Source: Carbonactinospora thermoautotrophica (GTDB lineage: Bacteria; Actinomycetota; Actinomycetes; Streptomycetales; Carbonactinosporaceae). Taken from it: 64,000 bases of DNA. A model generated the notes under the pieces. It did not search any database, had not been told where the DNA came from, and was given only the letters and a program-made list of their open reading frames with translations. Positions 75 to 31,987 of this stretch are shown piece by piece. The stretch is from the NCBI RefSeq assembly GCF_001543895.1, contig NZ_JYIJ01000019.1, positions 248,001 through 312,000 on the forward strand. Reading direction: 5' to 3'. A program made the position numbers and the translations under genes. Numbering within the stretch: the stretch's first letter is position 1; each line of letters starts with the position of its first letter.

Positions 75-1726
75 TGAACGCCCCCCTGCCGCTCGCGCAC
101 CGGCTGCTCGCCCCGCCGCCCGGGTGGGTCGCGTACGCCGACGTCGTGGTCGTCGGCTCCGGCATCGCCGGGCTGACCGTCGCGCTCAACGCCCGCCGCG
201 CCGGGCTCACGGTGCTCGTGGTGACCAAGGACGTGCTGTCCGCCGGCTCGACCCGCTGGGCGCAGGGCGGCATCGCCGCCGCCCTCGACGCGGAAGACTC
301 GCCCGAGCTGCACCTGAAGGACACCCTGGTCGCCGGCGTGGGACTGTGCGACGAGGCCGCCGTGCGCGTCCTGGTCACCGAGGGCCCGCAGGCGGTGCGC
401 CGCCTCATCGAGCTGGGCGCCCGCTTCGACCGCGACCGGCACGGCGAGCTGGAGCTGACCCGCGAGGGCGGCCATCTGCGCAACCGCATCGCCCACGCGG
501 GCGGGGACGCCACCGGCGCGGAGATCTTCCGGGCCCTGGAGGAGGCGGTCCGCGCGGAAGCCGAGGCCGGCGGTGTCGAGCTGATCGAGCACGCCCTCGT
601 CCTCGACCTGCTCTTCGACGACCGGGGTCGCGCCGCCGGCGTGACCCTGCACGTGATGGGCGAGGGCCAGCGCGACGGTGTGGGCGCGGTGCACTCCCGG
701 GCGGTGGTGCTGGCCACCGGCGGGCTCGGCCAGGTGTACAGCGCGACCACCAACCCGCCGGTGTCCACCGGCGACGGGGTGGCGCTGGCGCTGCGGGCCG
801 GGGCCGCGGCGACGGATCTGGAGTTCGTGCAGTTCCACCCCACCGCGCTCTACGTCGGACCGGAGGCGAAGGGTCAGCAGCCGCTGGTCTCCGAGGCGGT
901 CCGCGGCGAGGGCGCGGTGCTGGTGGACGCGGCCGGGGAGCGGTTCATGGTCGGGCAGCACCCGCTGGCCGAGCTCGCGCCGAGGGACGTCGTCGCCAAG
1001 GCGATCACCCGCCGGATGAGCGAGACCGGCGCCGACCACGTGTACCTGGACGGACGCGCGTTCGGCGAGGACACCTGGCGCCGGCGTTTCCCCACCATCT
1101 GGGAGAGCTGCCGCGCCCACGGCATCGACCCGGCGCGCGAGCTGATTCCGGTCCGCCCGGCCGCGCACCACGCCAGCGGCGGGGTGCGTACCGACCTGTA
1201 CGGCCGGACCACCATCCCCGGCCTGTACGCCTGCGGTGAGGTGGCCTGCACCGGCGTGCACGGCGCCAACCGGCTGGCCTCGAACTCCCTGCTGGAGGGC
1301 CTGGTCTTCGCCGAGCGCATCGCCGCCGACCTGGCGACCCGGCTGCCCGAGCCGCGCGATCCGGTGCCGGACGACCGGCCGGAGGGCCTGCTCGACCCGG
1401 CGGTGCGGGGCGAGGTGCAGCAGGCCATGACCGCGGGAGCAGGGGTGCTGCGCAGCCGCGACAGCCTGGATGAGACGTGCCGCCGCCTCATGGCGGCGCG
1501 GCTGCGGACCAGCGACGAGCCGTGCACCGAGGCGTGGGAGGCGACCAACCTCCACTTGGTGGCGAGCGCGCTGGCGGCGGCCGCGCGGGAGCGGGAGGAG
1601 ACCCGCGGCAGCCACTGGCGGGAGGATTTCCCGGACGCCGACGAGCGCTGGCTCGGCCACCTGGTGACCGTGCTGCGCGACGGGACGATCACGATGGAGT
1701 ACCAGAAGAAGGAGGAGGCTCCGTGA
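74..1726 (+). CDS. nadB: NadB, L-aspartate oxidase
   Basis: This 550-residue cytosolic flavoenzyme oxidises L-aspartate to iminoaspartate, the first step of de novo NAD synthesis. The N-terminal FAD-binding GSGIAG lies at residues 28-33. TRWAQGGIAAAL follows near residue 60, and the substrate-binding PAAHHASGGV and the HGANRLASNSLLEGLVF block characteristic of NadB lie in the second half. Length is normal for the family (about 530-560). The ATG overlaps the preceding TGA by one base, so the gene is translationally coupled to panD. No nadA lies beside it in the visible part. NadB belongs to the fumarate-reductase flavoprotein superfamily, but the motifs and the adjacent nadC make NadB clear. 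Confidence 0.96.
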   Translation: MNAPLPLAHRLLAPPPGWVAYADVVVVGSGIAGLTVALNARRAGLTVLVVTKDVLSAGSTRWAQGGIAAALDAEDSPELHLKDTLVAGVGLCDEAAVRVLVTEGPQAVRRLIELGARFDRDRHGELELTREGGHLRNRIAHAGGDATGAEIFRALEEAVRAEAEAGGVELIEHALVLDLLFDDRGRAAGVTLHVMGEGQRDGVGAVHSRAVVLATGGLGQVYSATTNPPVSTGDGVALALRAGAAATDLEFVQFHPTALYVGPEAKGQQPLVSEAVRGEGAVLVDAAGERFMVGQHPLAELAPRDVVAKAITRRMSETGADHVYLDGRAFGEDTWRRRFPTIWESCRAHGIDPARELIPVRPAAHHASGGVRTDLYGRTTIPGLYACGEVACTGVHGANRLASNSLLEGLVFAERIAADLATRLPEPRDPVPDDRPEGLLDPAVRGEVQQAMTAGAGVLRSRDSLDETCRRLMAARLRTSDEPCTEAWEATNLHLVASALAAAAREREETRGSHWREDFPDADERWLGHLVTVLRDGTITMEYQKKEEAP

Positions 1727-1794
1727 GCGAGCGCAGCGGGCTCGCCGACGAGACCGTGCGCGGCCACCTGGCCGACGGTGAGGAGGCCTGGTGA
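1723..1794 (+). CDS. Coupled 23-codon mini-ORF between nadB and nadC (MSERSGLADE... type)
   Basis: A GTG at 1723 overlaps the nadB stop as GTGA. A 23-codon frame runs to TGA 1792-1794, which itself overlaps the nadC GTG at 1791. The peptide begins MSERSGLADETV and ends GEEAW. The mini-ORF thus bridges two genes by two start-stop overlaps, and its end carries the GGTGAGGAGG ribosome-binding sequence of nadC. Its opening bases GTGAGCGAGCGCAGCG closely match the start of a second mini-ORF before proC (31119-31181). I infer a coupling or leader element inserted between genes rather than a functional protein; no function is known to me. Confidence 0.55.
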   Translation: MSERSGLADETVRGHLADGEEAW

Positions 1795-30062: not shown

Positions 30063-30992
30063 GTGCTTCGCCGTGTGCTTCTCGCGGCCTCCCGCAGCGA
30101 GAAGATGAAGAACGCGATCGAGACCTGGCCGGTCTCCAGAAGCGTGGTCAGGCGTTTCGTCGCAGGCACCAGCGTGGACGACGCGATCCGCGTCACCCGC
30201 CTCCTGACCAACGACGGGCTGCTGGTGACGCTGGACCACTTGGGTGAGGACACGCTGGACCGTCAGCAGGCCGACGCGACCCGGGACGCGTACCTGGTCC
30301 TGCTCCAGCGGCTCGCCGAAGCCGGTCTCACCGAGGGCGCGGAGGTCTCGCTCAAGCTCTCCGCCATAGGCCAGGCCCTTCCGGGTGACGGTGAGAAGAT
30401 CGCGTGCGAGAACGCGTACAAGATCTGCGAAGCCGCCCGCGCCGCCGGCACCACGGTCACCCTCGACATGGAGGACCACACCACCACCGACTCCACCCTT
30501 GCGATCCTGCGGGAGCTGCGGCGGGACTTCCCGTGGGTCGGCGCGGTCCTGCAGGCGTACCTCAAGCGCACCGAGGCTGACTGCCGCGACCTCGCGTACG
30601 AGGGCTCACGGGTGCGGCTCTGCAAGGGCGCGTACGCCGAGCCCGCATCCGTCGCCTACCAGGACGAGCACGAGGTGGACCGCTCGTACGTGCGCTGCCT
30701 CAAGATCCTGATGGGTGGCCGGGGCTACCCGATGGTGGCCACGCACGACCCGCGGCTCATCGAGATCGCCGGCGCGCTCGCCGTCCAGTTCGGCCGCGAC
30801 CAGGGCACGTACGAGTACCAGATGCTCTACGGCGTGCGCACCGAAGCGCAGCGCCGGCTGGCCGGGGCCGGCGAGAGGATGCGCGTGTACGTGCCGTACG
30901 GCCAGCAGTGGTACGGCTACCTCATGCGCCGCCTCGCCGAGCGGCCGGCGAACCTGGCGTTCTTCCTCCGGTCGCTGGCGTCCCGCCGGTAG
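30063..30992 (+). CDS. putA: Proline dehydrogenase (monofunctional)
   Basis: The 309-residue FAD enzyme oxidises proline to pyrroline-5-carboxylate. Family motifs are VSLKLSAIGQ, TTVTLDMEDHTTTD, VLQAYLKRTEADC (flavin and substrate strand), RVRLCKGAYAEP, and the C-terminal YEYQMLYGVR and VYVPYG...YLMRRLAERPAN. It is a single-domain protein, unlike the PutA fusion of enterics. GAGGAGG lies eight or nine bases before the GTG. It sits just upstream of proC, so opposing catabolic and biosynthetic enzymes of the proline cycle are neighbours. Confidence 0.95.
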   Translation: MLRRVLLAASRSEKMKNAIETWPVSRSVVRRFVAGTSVDDAIRVTRLLTNDGLLVTLDHLGEDTLDRQQADATRDAYLVLLQRLAEAGLTEGAEVSLKLSAIGQALPGDGEKIACENAYKICEAARAAGTTVTLDMEDHTTTDSTLAILRELRRDFPWVGAVLQAYLKRTEADCRDLAYEGSRVRLCKGAYAEPASVAYQDEHEVDRSYVRCLKILMGGRGYPMVATHDPRLIEIAGALAVQFGRDQGTYEYQMLYGVRTEAQRRLAGAGERMRVYVPYGQQWYGYLMRRLAERPANLAFFLRSLASRR

Positions 30993-31118
30993 GGGCCGTT
31001 TCCCGCCGGCCCGGGCTGGGTCGGTTGGACAAAGCCGGTTCGACAGCCGGTTCGGCAGCCGCTTCGATAGTGACGGCTACCAAGCACGAGCTACCGATCA
31101 CGAGAGGTGGACACCCCG

Positions 31119-31181
31119 ATGAGCGAGCGCGGCGAGCGAATCGTCGAAGCCCGTGCCCGCGCCGAGGAGGTGCGAGCATGA
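31119..31181 (+). CDS. Coupled 20-codon mini-ORF before proC (MSERGER... type)
   Basis: An ATG at 31119 with GAGAGGTGG upstream opens a 20-codon frame beginning MSERGERIVEAR. Its TGA (31179-31181) overlaps the proC ATG at 31178 as ATGA. The last codons contain the GAGGAGG used by proC. Its first bases (ATGAGCGAGCGCGGCGAGCG) nearly repeat the mini-ORF before nadC. I infer a coupling leader that belongs to a small dispersed element found in front of actinobacterial genes. Confidence 0.55.
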   Translation: MSERGERIVEARARAEEVRA

Positions 31182-31987
31182 GCCAGCGGATCGCTGTGAT
31201 CGGCGCGGGCAAGATGGGCGAGGCCCTGCTGTCCGGCATGCTGCGGGCCGGCAAGCAGCCGGGCGACCTGATGGCGACCGTCCGGCGCGCCGAGCGCGCG
31301 AAGCTGCTCCGCGAGCGGTACGGCATCGAGATCGTCACGAACGCCGAGGCCGCCAAGAGCGCGGACACCCTGATCCTCGCGGTCAAGCCGCAGGACATGG
31401 AGGTCCTGCTGGACGAGCTGAGCCCGTACGTGTCCGCGAACCAGCTCATCGTCTCGGTCGCGGCCGGTATCACGACCGGGTTCATCGAACGCCGGCTCAC
31501 CGAGGGCGTGCCGGTCGTCCGGGTCATGTCCAACACGCCGGTGCTGGTCGACGAGGCGATGAGCGCGATCTCGCCCGGCGCGCACGCCGCCGAAGAGCAC
31601 CTGCGGCGCACCGAGGAGATCTTCAAGCCGGTCGGCAAGACGATCCGGGTGCCGGAGTCGCAGCAGGACGCCGTGACCGCGCTGTCCGGCTCCGGCCCGG
31701 CGTACTTCTACTACCTGGTCGAGGCCATGACCGACGCCGGCCTCCTGCTCGGCCTGCCGCGCGCGGTCGCGCACGAGCTGGTCGTGCAGACCGCGATCGG
31801 CGCCGCGGTGATGATGCGCGACTCCGGCGAGCACCCGGTCATCCTGCGCGAGGCCGTGACCTCCCCGGCCGGCACGACCGCCGTCGCCGTCAAGGAGCTG
31901 GAGAACCACAGCGTGCGCGCCGCCCTGATCGCCGCCCTGGAGGCCGCCCGCAACCGGTCCCGGGAGCTGGCGTCCGGGCACGAGTGA
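31178..31987 (+). CDS. proC: ProC, pyrroline-5-carboxylate reductase
   Basis: ProC (269 residues) performs the last step of proline synthesis. The Rossmann motif is IAVIGAGKMGEALLSGML, and VKPQDMEVLLDEL lies before the second half. The family signature in the C-terminal helical domain is ALSGSGPAYFYYLVEAMTDAGLLLGLPR...LREAVTSPAGTTAVAVKELE. Length is typical. Translation is coupled to the upstream mini-ORF by ATGA. Position matches Rv0500. Confidence 0.97.
   Translation: MSQRIAVIGAGKMGEALLSGMLRAGKQPGDLMATVRRAERAKLLRERYGIEIVTNAEAAKSADTLILAVKPQDMEVLLDELSPYVSANQLIVSVAAGITTGFIERRLTEGVPVVRVMSNTPVLVDEAMSAISPGAHAAEEHLRRTEEIFKPVGKTIRVPESQQDAVTALSGSGPAYFYYLVEAMTDAGLLLGLPRAVAHELVVQTAIGAAVMMRDSGEHPVILREAVTSPAGTTAVAVKELENHSVRAALIAALEAARNRSRELASGHE

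Follow-up and report, generated by a model that had tools for sequence, protein, structure and literature searches.

The short reading frame in front of proC in the actinobacterium Carbonactinospora thermoautotrophica is likely a diverged member of a MIRU-like repeat family, whose insertion would have made the translation of proC dependent on the ribosomes that translate this mini-ORF. The grounds for this reading are a repeat family, its placement at gene starts, the 4-nt overlaps, a hairpin that covaries in related elements and the hairpin potential of the proC copy. The window, i.e. the whole stretch of 64,000 nucleotides that was analyzed, contains one copy before proC and a second one before nadC. 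Two sequence profiles were used to trace such elements: R1 was made from five elements of the same genome without both window copies, and R2 comprises 38 elements with both window copies included. The proC locus is organized as follows.

30063 to 30992, plus strand: proline dehydrogenase gene upstream of proC (NF045947, E = 1.4e-66, below the curated cut-off)
31102 to 31110, plus strand: purine-rich GAGAGGTGG, ribosome-binding site of the mini-ORF and perhaps the ancestral one of proC (from the sequence; a similar leader lies directly 5' of proC in locus L014)
31119 to 31181, plus strand: mini-ORF of 20 codons plus stop, MSERGERIVEARARAEEVRA, starting in an ATGA, its stop overlapping proC (from the sequence)
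31119 to 31177, plus strand: element unit of 59 bp with ATGA at both borders (E = 1.1e-4 with R1, which lacks this copy; 4.4e-8 with R2, which includes it)
31152 to 31160, plus strand: 5' arm of the proC hairpin, CGTGCCCGC (paired with the 3' arm at 8 of 9 positions, equalled by 46 of 2000 shuffles; RNAfold)
31161 to 31171, plus strand: hairpin loop, GCCGAGGAGGT, holding the proC Shine-Dalgarno GGAGG at 31166-31170 (sequence, pairing, RNAfold)
31172 to 31180, plus strand: 3' arm of the hairpin, GCGAGCATG, including the proC ATG (arm pairing, RNAfold)
31178 to 31987, plus strand: proC, pyrroline-5-carboxylate reductase (TIGR00112, 266.9 bits)

The 20-codon frame reported in the preliminary description is present at 31119-31181 as claimed: ATG 31119 opens MSERGERIVEARARAEEVRA, and the TGA stop at 31179-31181 forms an ATGA overlap with the proC ATG at 31178. 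The possibility that the mini-ORF is an N-terminal extension of proC was ruled out, because it lies in another frame. The same description had given the mini-ORF a ribosome-binding site of its own; a purine-rich stretch indeed precedes it, but this is more likely the ancestral ribosome-binding site of proC, the present proC site being located inside the element in the hairpin loop. In RNAfold the loop is partly closed, with GAGGA remaining in the apical loop. The proC copy is shorter than other copies (59 vs 77 bp) and diverged, and compared with the 17-base loop of the sdhC copy (GCCGAGCGGAGCGAGGA) its loop looks as if it had suffered a 6-base deletion. The second window copy is found between nadB and nadC.

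1723 to 1794, plus strand: element and mini-ORF VSERSGLADETVRGHLADGEEAW of 23 codons, with GTGA overlaps at the nadB stop and the nadC start (from the sequence; E = 0.25 with R1, made without this copy, and 2.6e-7 with R2, built with it)
1765 to 1793, plus strand: hairpin with CACCTGGCC, loop GACGGTGAGGA and GGCCTGGTG, the latter with the nadC GTG (8 of 9 positions paired, 12 of 2000 shuffles equal; RNAfold)

The nadC element is 68 bp long, both window copies are single and not tandem, and RNAfold places the start codons of proC and nadC in stems. The openings of the two mini-ORFs, said earlier to share 18 of about 20 bases, agree by eye at 16 of the first 20. The view that both mini-ORFs are one kind of thing with coupling as their probable point held up; however, rather than two leader ORFs they represent an interspersed and sometimes tandem repeat family. 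A candidate third window copy on the minus strand (7051-6968) was rejected by eye, lacking the element 3' end and a convincing gene behind it.

The preliminary description had further argued that two copies with the same coupling geometry make chance unlikely, an argument that does not hold from the window alone according to shuffles and mechanical counts. The string TGAGCGAGCG occurs twice in the window vs 0.44 expected occurrences, and 7 of 100 shuffles reach two. A mechanical count of the geometry, defined as a mini-ORF of 12-50 codons with a 4-nt overlap to an ORF of at least 100 codons, returned 104 occurrences at 62 downstream starts. The significance rests on the whole genome (5.13 Mb), which excludes chance for the repeat family: RTGAGCGAGCGNRGCG has 11 matches there vs 0 for the reversed control pattern. 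One RTGAGCGAGCGNRGCG match, at locus L010, was taken as a chance occurrence, no short frame starting there. In an R1 search of the same genome the proC copy takes rank 13 among the 67 matches listed (E = 1.1e-4), and the nadC copy appears only at E = 0.25. The R1 E-values are not decisive alone, because 17 of the 395 other genomes in a phylum sample of 396 also match at E up to 0.001.

According to our reading of the RTGAGCGAGCGNRGCG matches, each unit consists of an open frame bordered on both sides by ATGA or GTGA. The element junctions include ribE-pnuC, nuoI, nadB-nadC, hemA-hemC and sigH-rsrA; the final two copies at ribE-pnuC, and likewise those in front of nuoI, form a tandem of identical 77-bp repeats. 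R2 found 27 matches in the genome up to E = 0.045, 19 of which end in DTGA, and 15 carry an intact mini-ORF with a 4-nt overlap, the other 12 being without an intact coupled frame. By mechanical count, 14 of the 27 start on the stop codon of an open frame with 80 codons or more, a number that takes in the proC copy, whose upstream frame is not regarded as a gene. Host genes were identified with NCBIfam at E up to 1e-10. Above the curated cut-off are riboflavin synthase, succinate dehydrogenase cytochrome b, aspartate kinase and HisA as well as RsrA behind a SigH-type sigma factor and the pairs hemA to hemC and TlyA to NAD kinase, and below it are PnuC, NuoI and a zinc ABC permease. For the genes that follow the succinate dehydrogenase subunit and HisA, NCBIfam gave no match at this threshold; the labels 'sdhD', 'RidA-like' and 'nuoH' were given by eye or position. 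Twelve loci searched against Rfam had no match at gathering scores, and one element used as query against the PLSDB plasmids gave 12 partial matches, none covering 80%.

Several other loci of the genome carry sequences of the same type in other arrangements. At G000:C12:189650-189715 (loci L129 and L347) an element seems, by eye, to be fused in frame to an apparent aroB; the start reads ATGC and not ATGA, hence the mini-ORF reads into the gene as an N-terminal extension. At G000:C10:51432 (L001) the upstream frame passes through SER-type sequence and ends with VSERGEEGA at a GTGA overlap to the gene that follows, which is perhaps an element remnant turned C-terminus. At G000:C19:1051129 (L011) a SER-type frame of 48 codons contains SERSERT twice and ends in TAATG, and the gene before it resembles by eye polyphosphate kinase.

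Related elements are spread among other actinobacteria. The order-level search covered 41 genomes, among which C. thermoautotrophica is the sole member of its family; judged from the named proC relatives, the other families of the order appear to be Streptomyces-like and Catenulispora-like. R1 gave 10 matches in G268, a genome of another family, and found matches in 15 of 148 genomes of the genus g7. The latter is probably Mycobacterium or very close to it, because a PPE protein had matches in all six g7 genomes tested (1.2e-65 to 1.1e-62; for comparison 1.3e-8 in C. thermoautotrophica and 1.8e-29 in G268). With R2, matches were found in 111 of 396 g7 genomes, and 29 of the 30 g7 loci listed show an intact mini-ORF with the 4-nt overlap, the remaining one having been misread by the script, probably owing to a nearby contig end. 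The relation to the elements of the Mycobacterium-like g7 was found by R1, i.e. from elements of C. thermoautotrophica with the proC and nadC copies excluded, and both element ends are common to the two, as they are in the alignments across lineages. Related units with DTGA overlaps were found in other actinobacteria, too. At the level of the class, RTGAGCGAGCGNAGCGAGCG with one mismatch allowed occurs in 79 of 394 genomes vs 19 of 394 for its reversed control (read from the table), the control matching once each except in G791. Two further genomes, G866 with 65 matches and G629 with 10, show AGG where the start codon would be in the matches listed (AGGAGCGAGCGCAGCGAGCG), perhaps another repeat class without start codon.

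A further characteristic of the family is a probable hairpin over the downstream start codon. A mixed alignment without either window copy suggested a stem between the middle of the element and its 3' end including the start codon, and the base opposite the first base of the start codon is C in the GTG rows (5) and T in the ATG rows (19). The consensus fold of this alignment is weak in energy (-0.02 kcal/mol), hence sets of equal length were used instead. The coupling filter kept 90 frames, a few of them nested or doubtful, from which sets were formed of frames with 18 or more codons and a common length within the lineage (own genome 3, G268 7, g7 15, g13 11, g273 13, G568 6, G634 5), with the G607 copies and odd lengths staying outside; for the permutation of 3' arms (20000) and the G-U counts, g7 was enlarged to 35 and G634 left out. 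At the best-pairing offset in the equal-length sets, 6.7 to 8.4 of 9 positions are paired vs 4.4 to 6.0 at the runner-up. The paired cells amount to 97.7% in g273, 92.9% in g13 and 77.8% in g7, those changed on both sides to 9, 10 and 6, respectively; in each of these sets all 500 shuffles stayed below the observed values for both of these measures and for the covariation score, and slid structures reached 14.8-53.0% paired. The numbers of pairs changed on both sides (shuffles as high: g273 387, g13 1, g7 51 of 500) and of further pair types (387, 103 and 39 of 500) stand out, if at all, only in g13 and g7. When 3' arms were permuted among elements, the observed pairing was reached in 0 (g273), 1 (g13), 0 (g7) and 180 (G268) of 20000 cases, and the small sets gave no significant result (own genome 6699/20000, G568 1297/20000, G634 3002/5000); these shuffle and permutation tests are inflated by sequence kinship, and the sets were chosen for intact coupling.

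The GAGG Shine-Dalgarno closes the loop in the elements of C. thermoautotrophica, G268 and g7. At least seven pairs with 9-base arms are possible in 18 of 19 own and 25 of 29 g7 elements but also at 174 of 310 comparable window sites, hence the strength of the observation lies in the covariation and not in the pair count. Eight pairs with at least seven of the Watson-Crick type occur at 12 of these 310 sites, proC and nadC included, and the proC hairpin alone is only modestly unusual. All in all, the start-codon hairpin has good support at the level of the family and is plausible in the proC copy.

Evidence on the insertion itself comes from candidate element-free sites. Exact motif forms were absent near proC in all 80 loci from named records and all 29 from the same order. 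The MAG locus L014 carries a proC of 76% identity, and its 30-base proC leader is similar to the 30 bases in front of the mini-ORF (as high a score in 1 of 5000 shuffles, for the best-scoring of 36 proC loci compared); in L234 nadB and nadC overlap directly by GTGA. These two loci are candidate empty sites for proC and nadB-nadC, respectively. For the 36 proC loci whose start is clear, leader scores averaged 14.82 vs the element 3' end and 13.24 vs the left flank, the left flank scoring higher in 9 and lower in 24, hence distant leaders are uninformative or mildly contrary to insertion. Another proC 76% identical to that of the window was met in L032 (JAJAYQ010000111.1), titled Spirochaetaceae bacterium, where an apparent proline dehydrogenase 3' end lies just 5' of proC; this record is probably a mislabelled or contaminated MAG.

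Taken by function, the best mechanism for these features seems to be translational coupling, in which the insertion event, the translation of the mini-ORF and the dependence of proC on it are the parts that we infer. The ATGA at the start of proC would have been the insertion site of a short unit, which would have left ATGA on either side. Ribosomes would then load at the old ribosome-binding site of proC and read the mini-ORF, the peptide itself probably being of little importance. In the RNA of the element, the proC AUG would be hidden in the 3' arm of the hairpin and the Shine-Dalgarno displayed in its loop; the ribosome on the mini-ORF would open the hairpin and halt at the UGA that overlaps the start codon, from where proC could be initiated. 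Translational coupling by RNA unfolding is treated in a review (PMC12548453), and in the excerpts of it considered here the principle is alike with regard to a structure over the downstream start, its opening by the upstream ribosome and the 4-nt overlap. Unlike there, a repeated element of ~20-27 codons takes the place of an upstream operon gene, and its coupling would be deduced from the arrangement.

The closest counterparts known are the mycobacterial interspersed repetitive units (MIRUs; Supply et al. 1997, as cited in later papers), which underlie tuberculosis strain typing. According to the portions of the literature drawn on here, MIRUs occur in many mycobacteria, are apparently mobile, insert at start codons and carry an ORF coupled at -4 nt (PMC12548453). 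The senX3-regX3 operon carries MIRUs of 77 and 53 bp, said to be exclusive to M. leprae and the M. tuberculosis complex (PMC4213456), and a class I MIRU forms the entire 77-nt 5' UTR of a gene in M. bovis that is leaderless in M. marinum (PMC4128351). The exact function of such repeats is described as not well understood (PMC2734929). The likeness, which was drawn from descriptions of M. tuberculosis MIRUs and not from their sequences, includes the size (59 bp at proC, 68 bp at nadC, 77 bp and others, interspersed, compared with repeat units of 40-100 bp in excerpts of PMC2734929), the small ORF at -4 nt (the proC and nadC copies, 15 of 27 own R2 matches and 29 of 30 g7 loci listed; PMC12548453, in part), tandem copies (identical 77-bp repeats at ribE-pnuC and before nuoI) and the place at start codons (PMC12548453) and between operon genes. 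In contrast to the MIRUs as described, the host is an actinobacterium outside Mycobacterium, the proC copy is a shortened 59-bp form, and a covarying start-codon hairpin is found. In the literature searched, covering few subscription journals, we found neither such elements outside mycobacteria nor a start-codon hairpin in MIRUs described, and the motif strings had no match.

Several other explanations have to be weighed against coupling. Elements of the IS200/IS605 or REP type insert beside a fixed tetranucleotide, and the inverted repeat might be a comparable DNA signal, the coding strand folding as single-stranded DNA for mobilization beside DTGA and the coupling merely ensuring harmlessness. 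This is unlikely, despite the DTGA at both borders, a stem that reaches into the 3' DTGA and the multi-copy and tandem occurrence of the elements, since the stems vary by locus within lineages with compensatory changes, as expected if they were kept after insertion. Moreover, G-U pairs are frequent (47 vs 16 A-C pairs, 13 of the latter in one inner column of g273), which favors folding of the sense strand and fits RNA, though coding-strand DNA could account for it as well. We regard it as rather improbable that the element has its effect at the level of transcription, serving as a promoter or as a spacer in the 5' UTR, with an incidental small ORF. Passages of two papers fit such a role, in that the MIRU-containing region can drive senX3-independent regX3 expression (PMC4213456) and repeat length is linked to the fpg1 mRNA level (PMC2734929), but it leaves the DTGA overlap (29 of 30 listed g7 loci) and the pairing of the start codon unexplained. 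To the same low degree it is probable that the resemblance at proC is due to chance, proC then having an ordinary leader that happens to contain a short open frame: such geometry is frequent in the window (62 downstream starts) and R1 also matches 17 of 395 other genomes of the phylum sample at E up to 0.001, but R1 was built without the proC copy and still ranks it 13th among 67 listed matches of the own genome, and borders, stem and loop follow the family plan.

The open frame is weak evidence by itself, because frame +2 is open about as often (19 of 27 own and 20 of 30 listed g7 elements), frame +1 being open in one of each. A functional small peptide, the amount of which would be set relative to ProC by the coupling, is highly improbable even though synonymous change is highest in the true frame for two of the four sets (g273 0.53 vs 0.19 and 0.17; G268 0.45 vs 0.18 and 0.37), since the other two do not show this pattern (g13 0.30 vs 0.38 and 0.23; g7 0.32 vs 0.29 and 0.45), the differences between mini-ORFs are spread over all codon positions, the family precedes unrelated genes and the peptides differ between lineages. 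The peptide is therefore probably mostly unimportant, with some doubt in the sets g273 and G268.

Collectively, MIRU-like elements in many actinobacterial families together with a covarying start-codon hairpin point to a specific mechanism, which is testable by point mutations. Some of the SER-rich small ORFs and N-termini annotated in actinobacteria may accordingly be remnants of such elements. Beyond proC, we tentatively suggest, with hardly more doubt than belief, that MIRU-like elements might form an old, class-wide family of insertable translation switches, whose hairpin buries the start codon and displays the Shine-Dalgarno, and in which compensatory changes would reflect that the switch was kept and tuned after insertion. 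If true, genes behind such elements would be translated only through the mini-ORF. Start-codon gating would then also be an answer to the function of the repeats used in tuberculosis typing.
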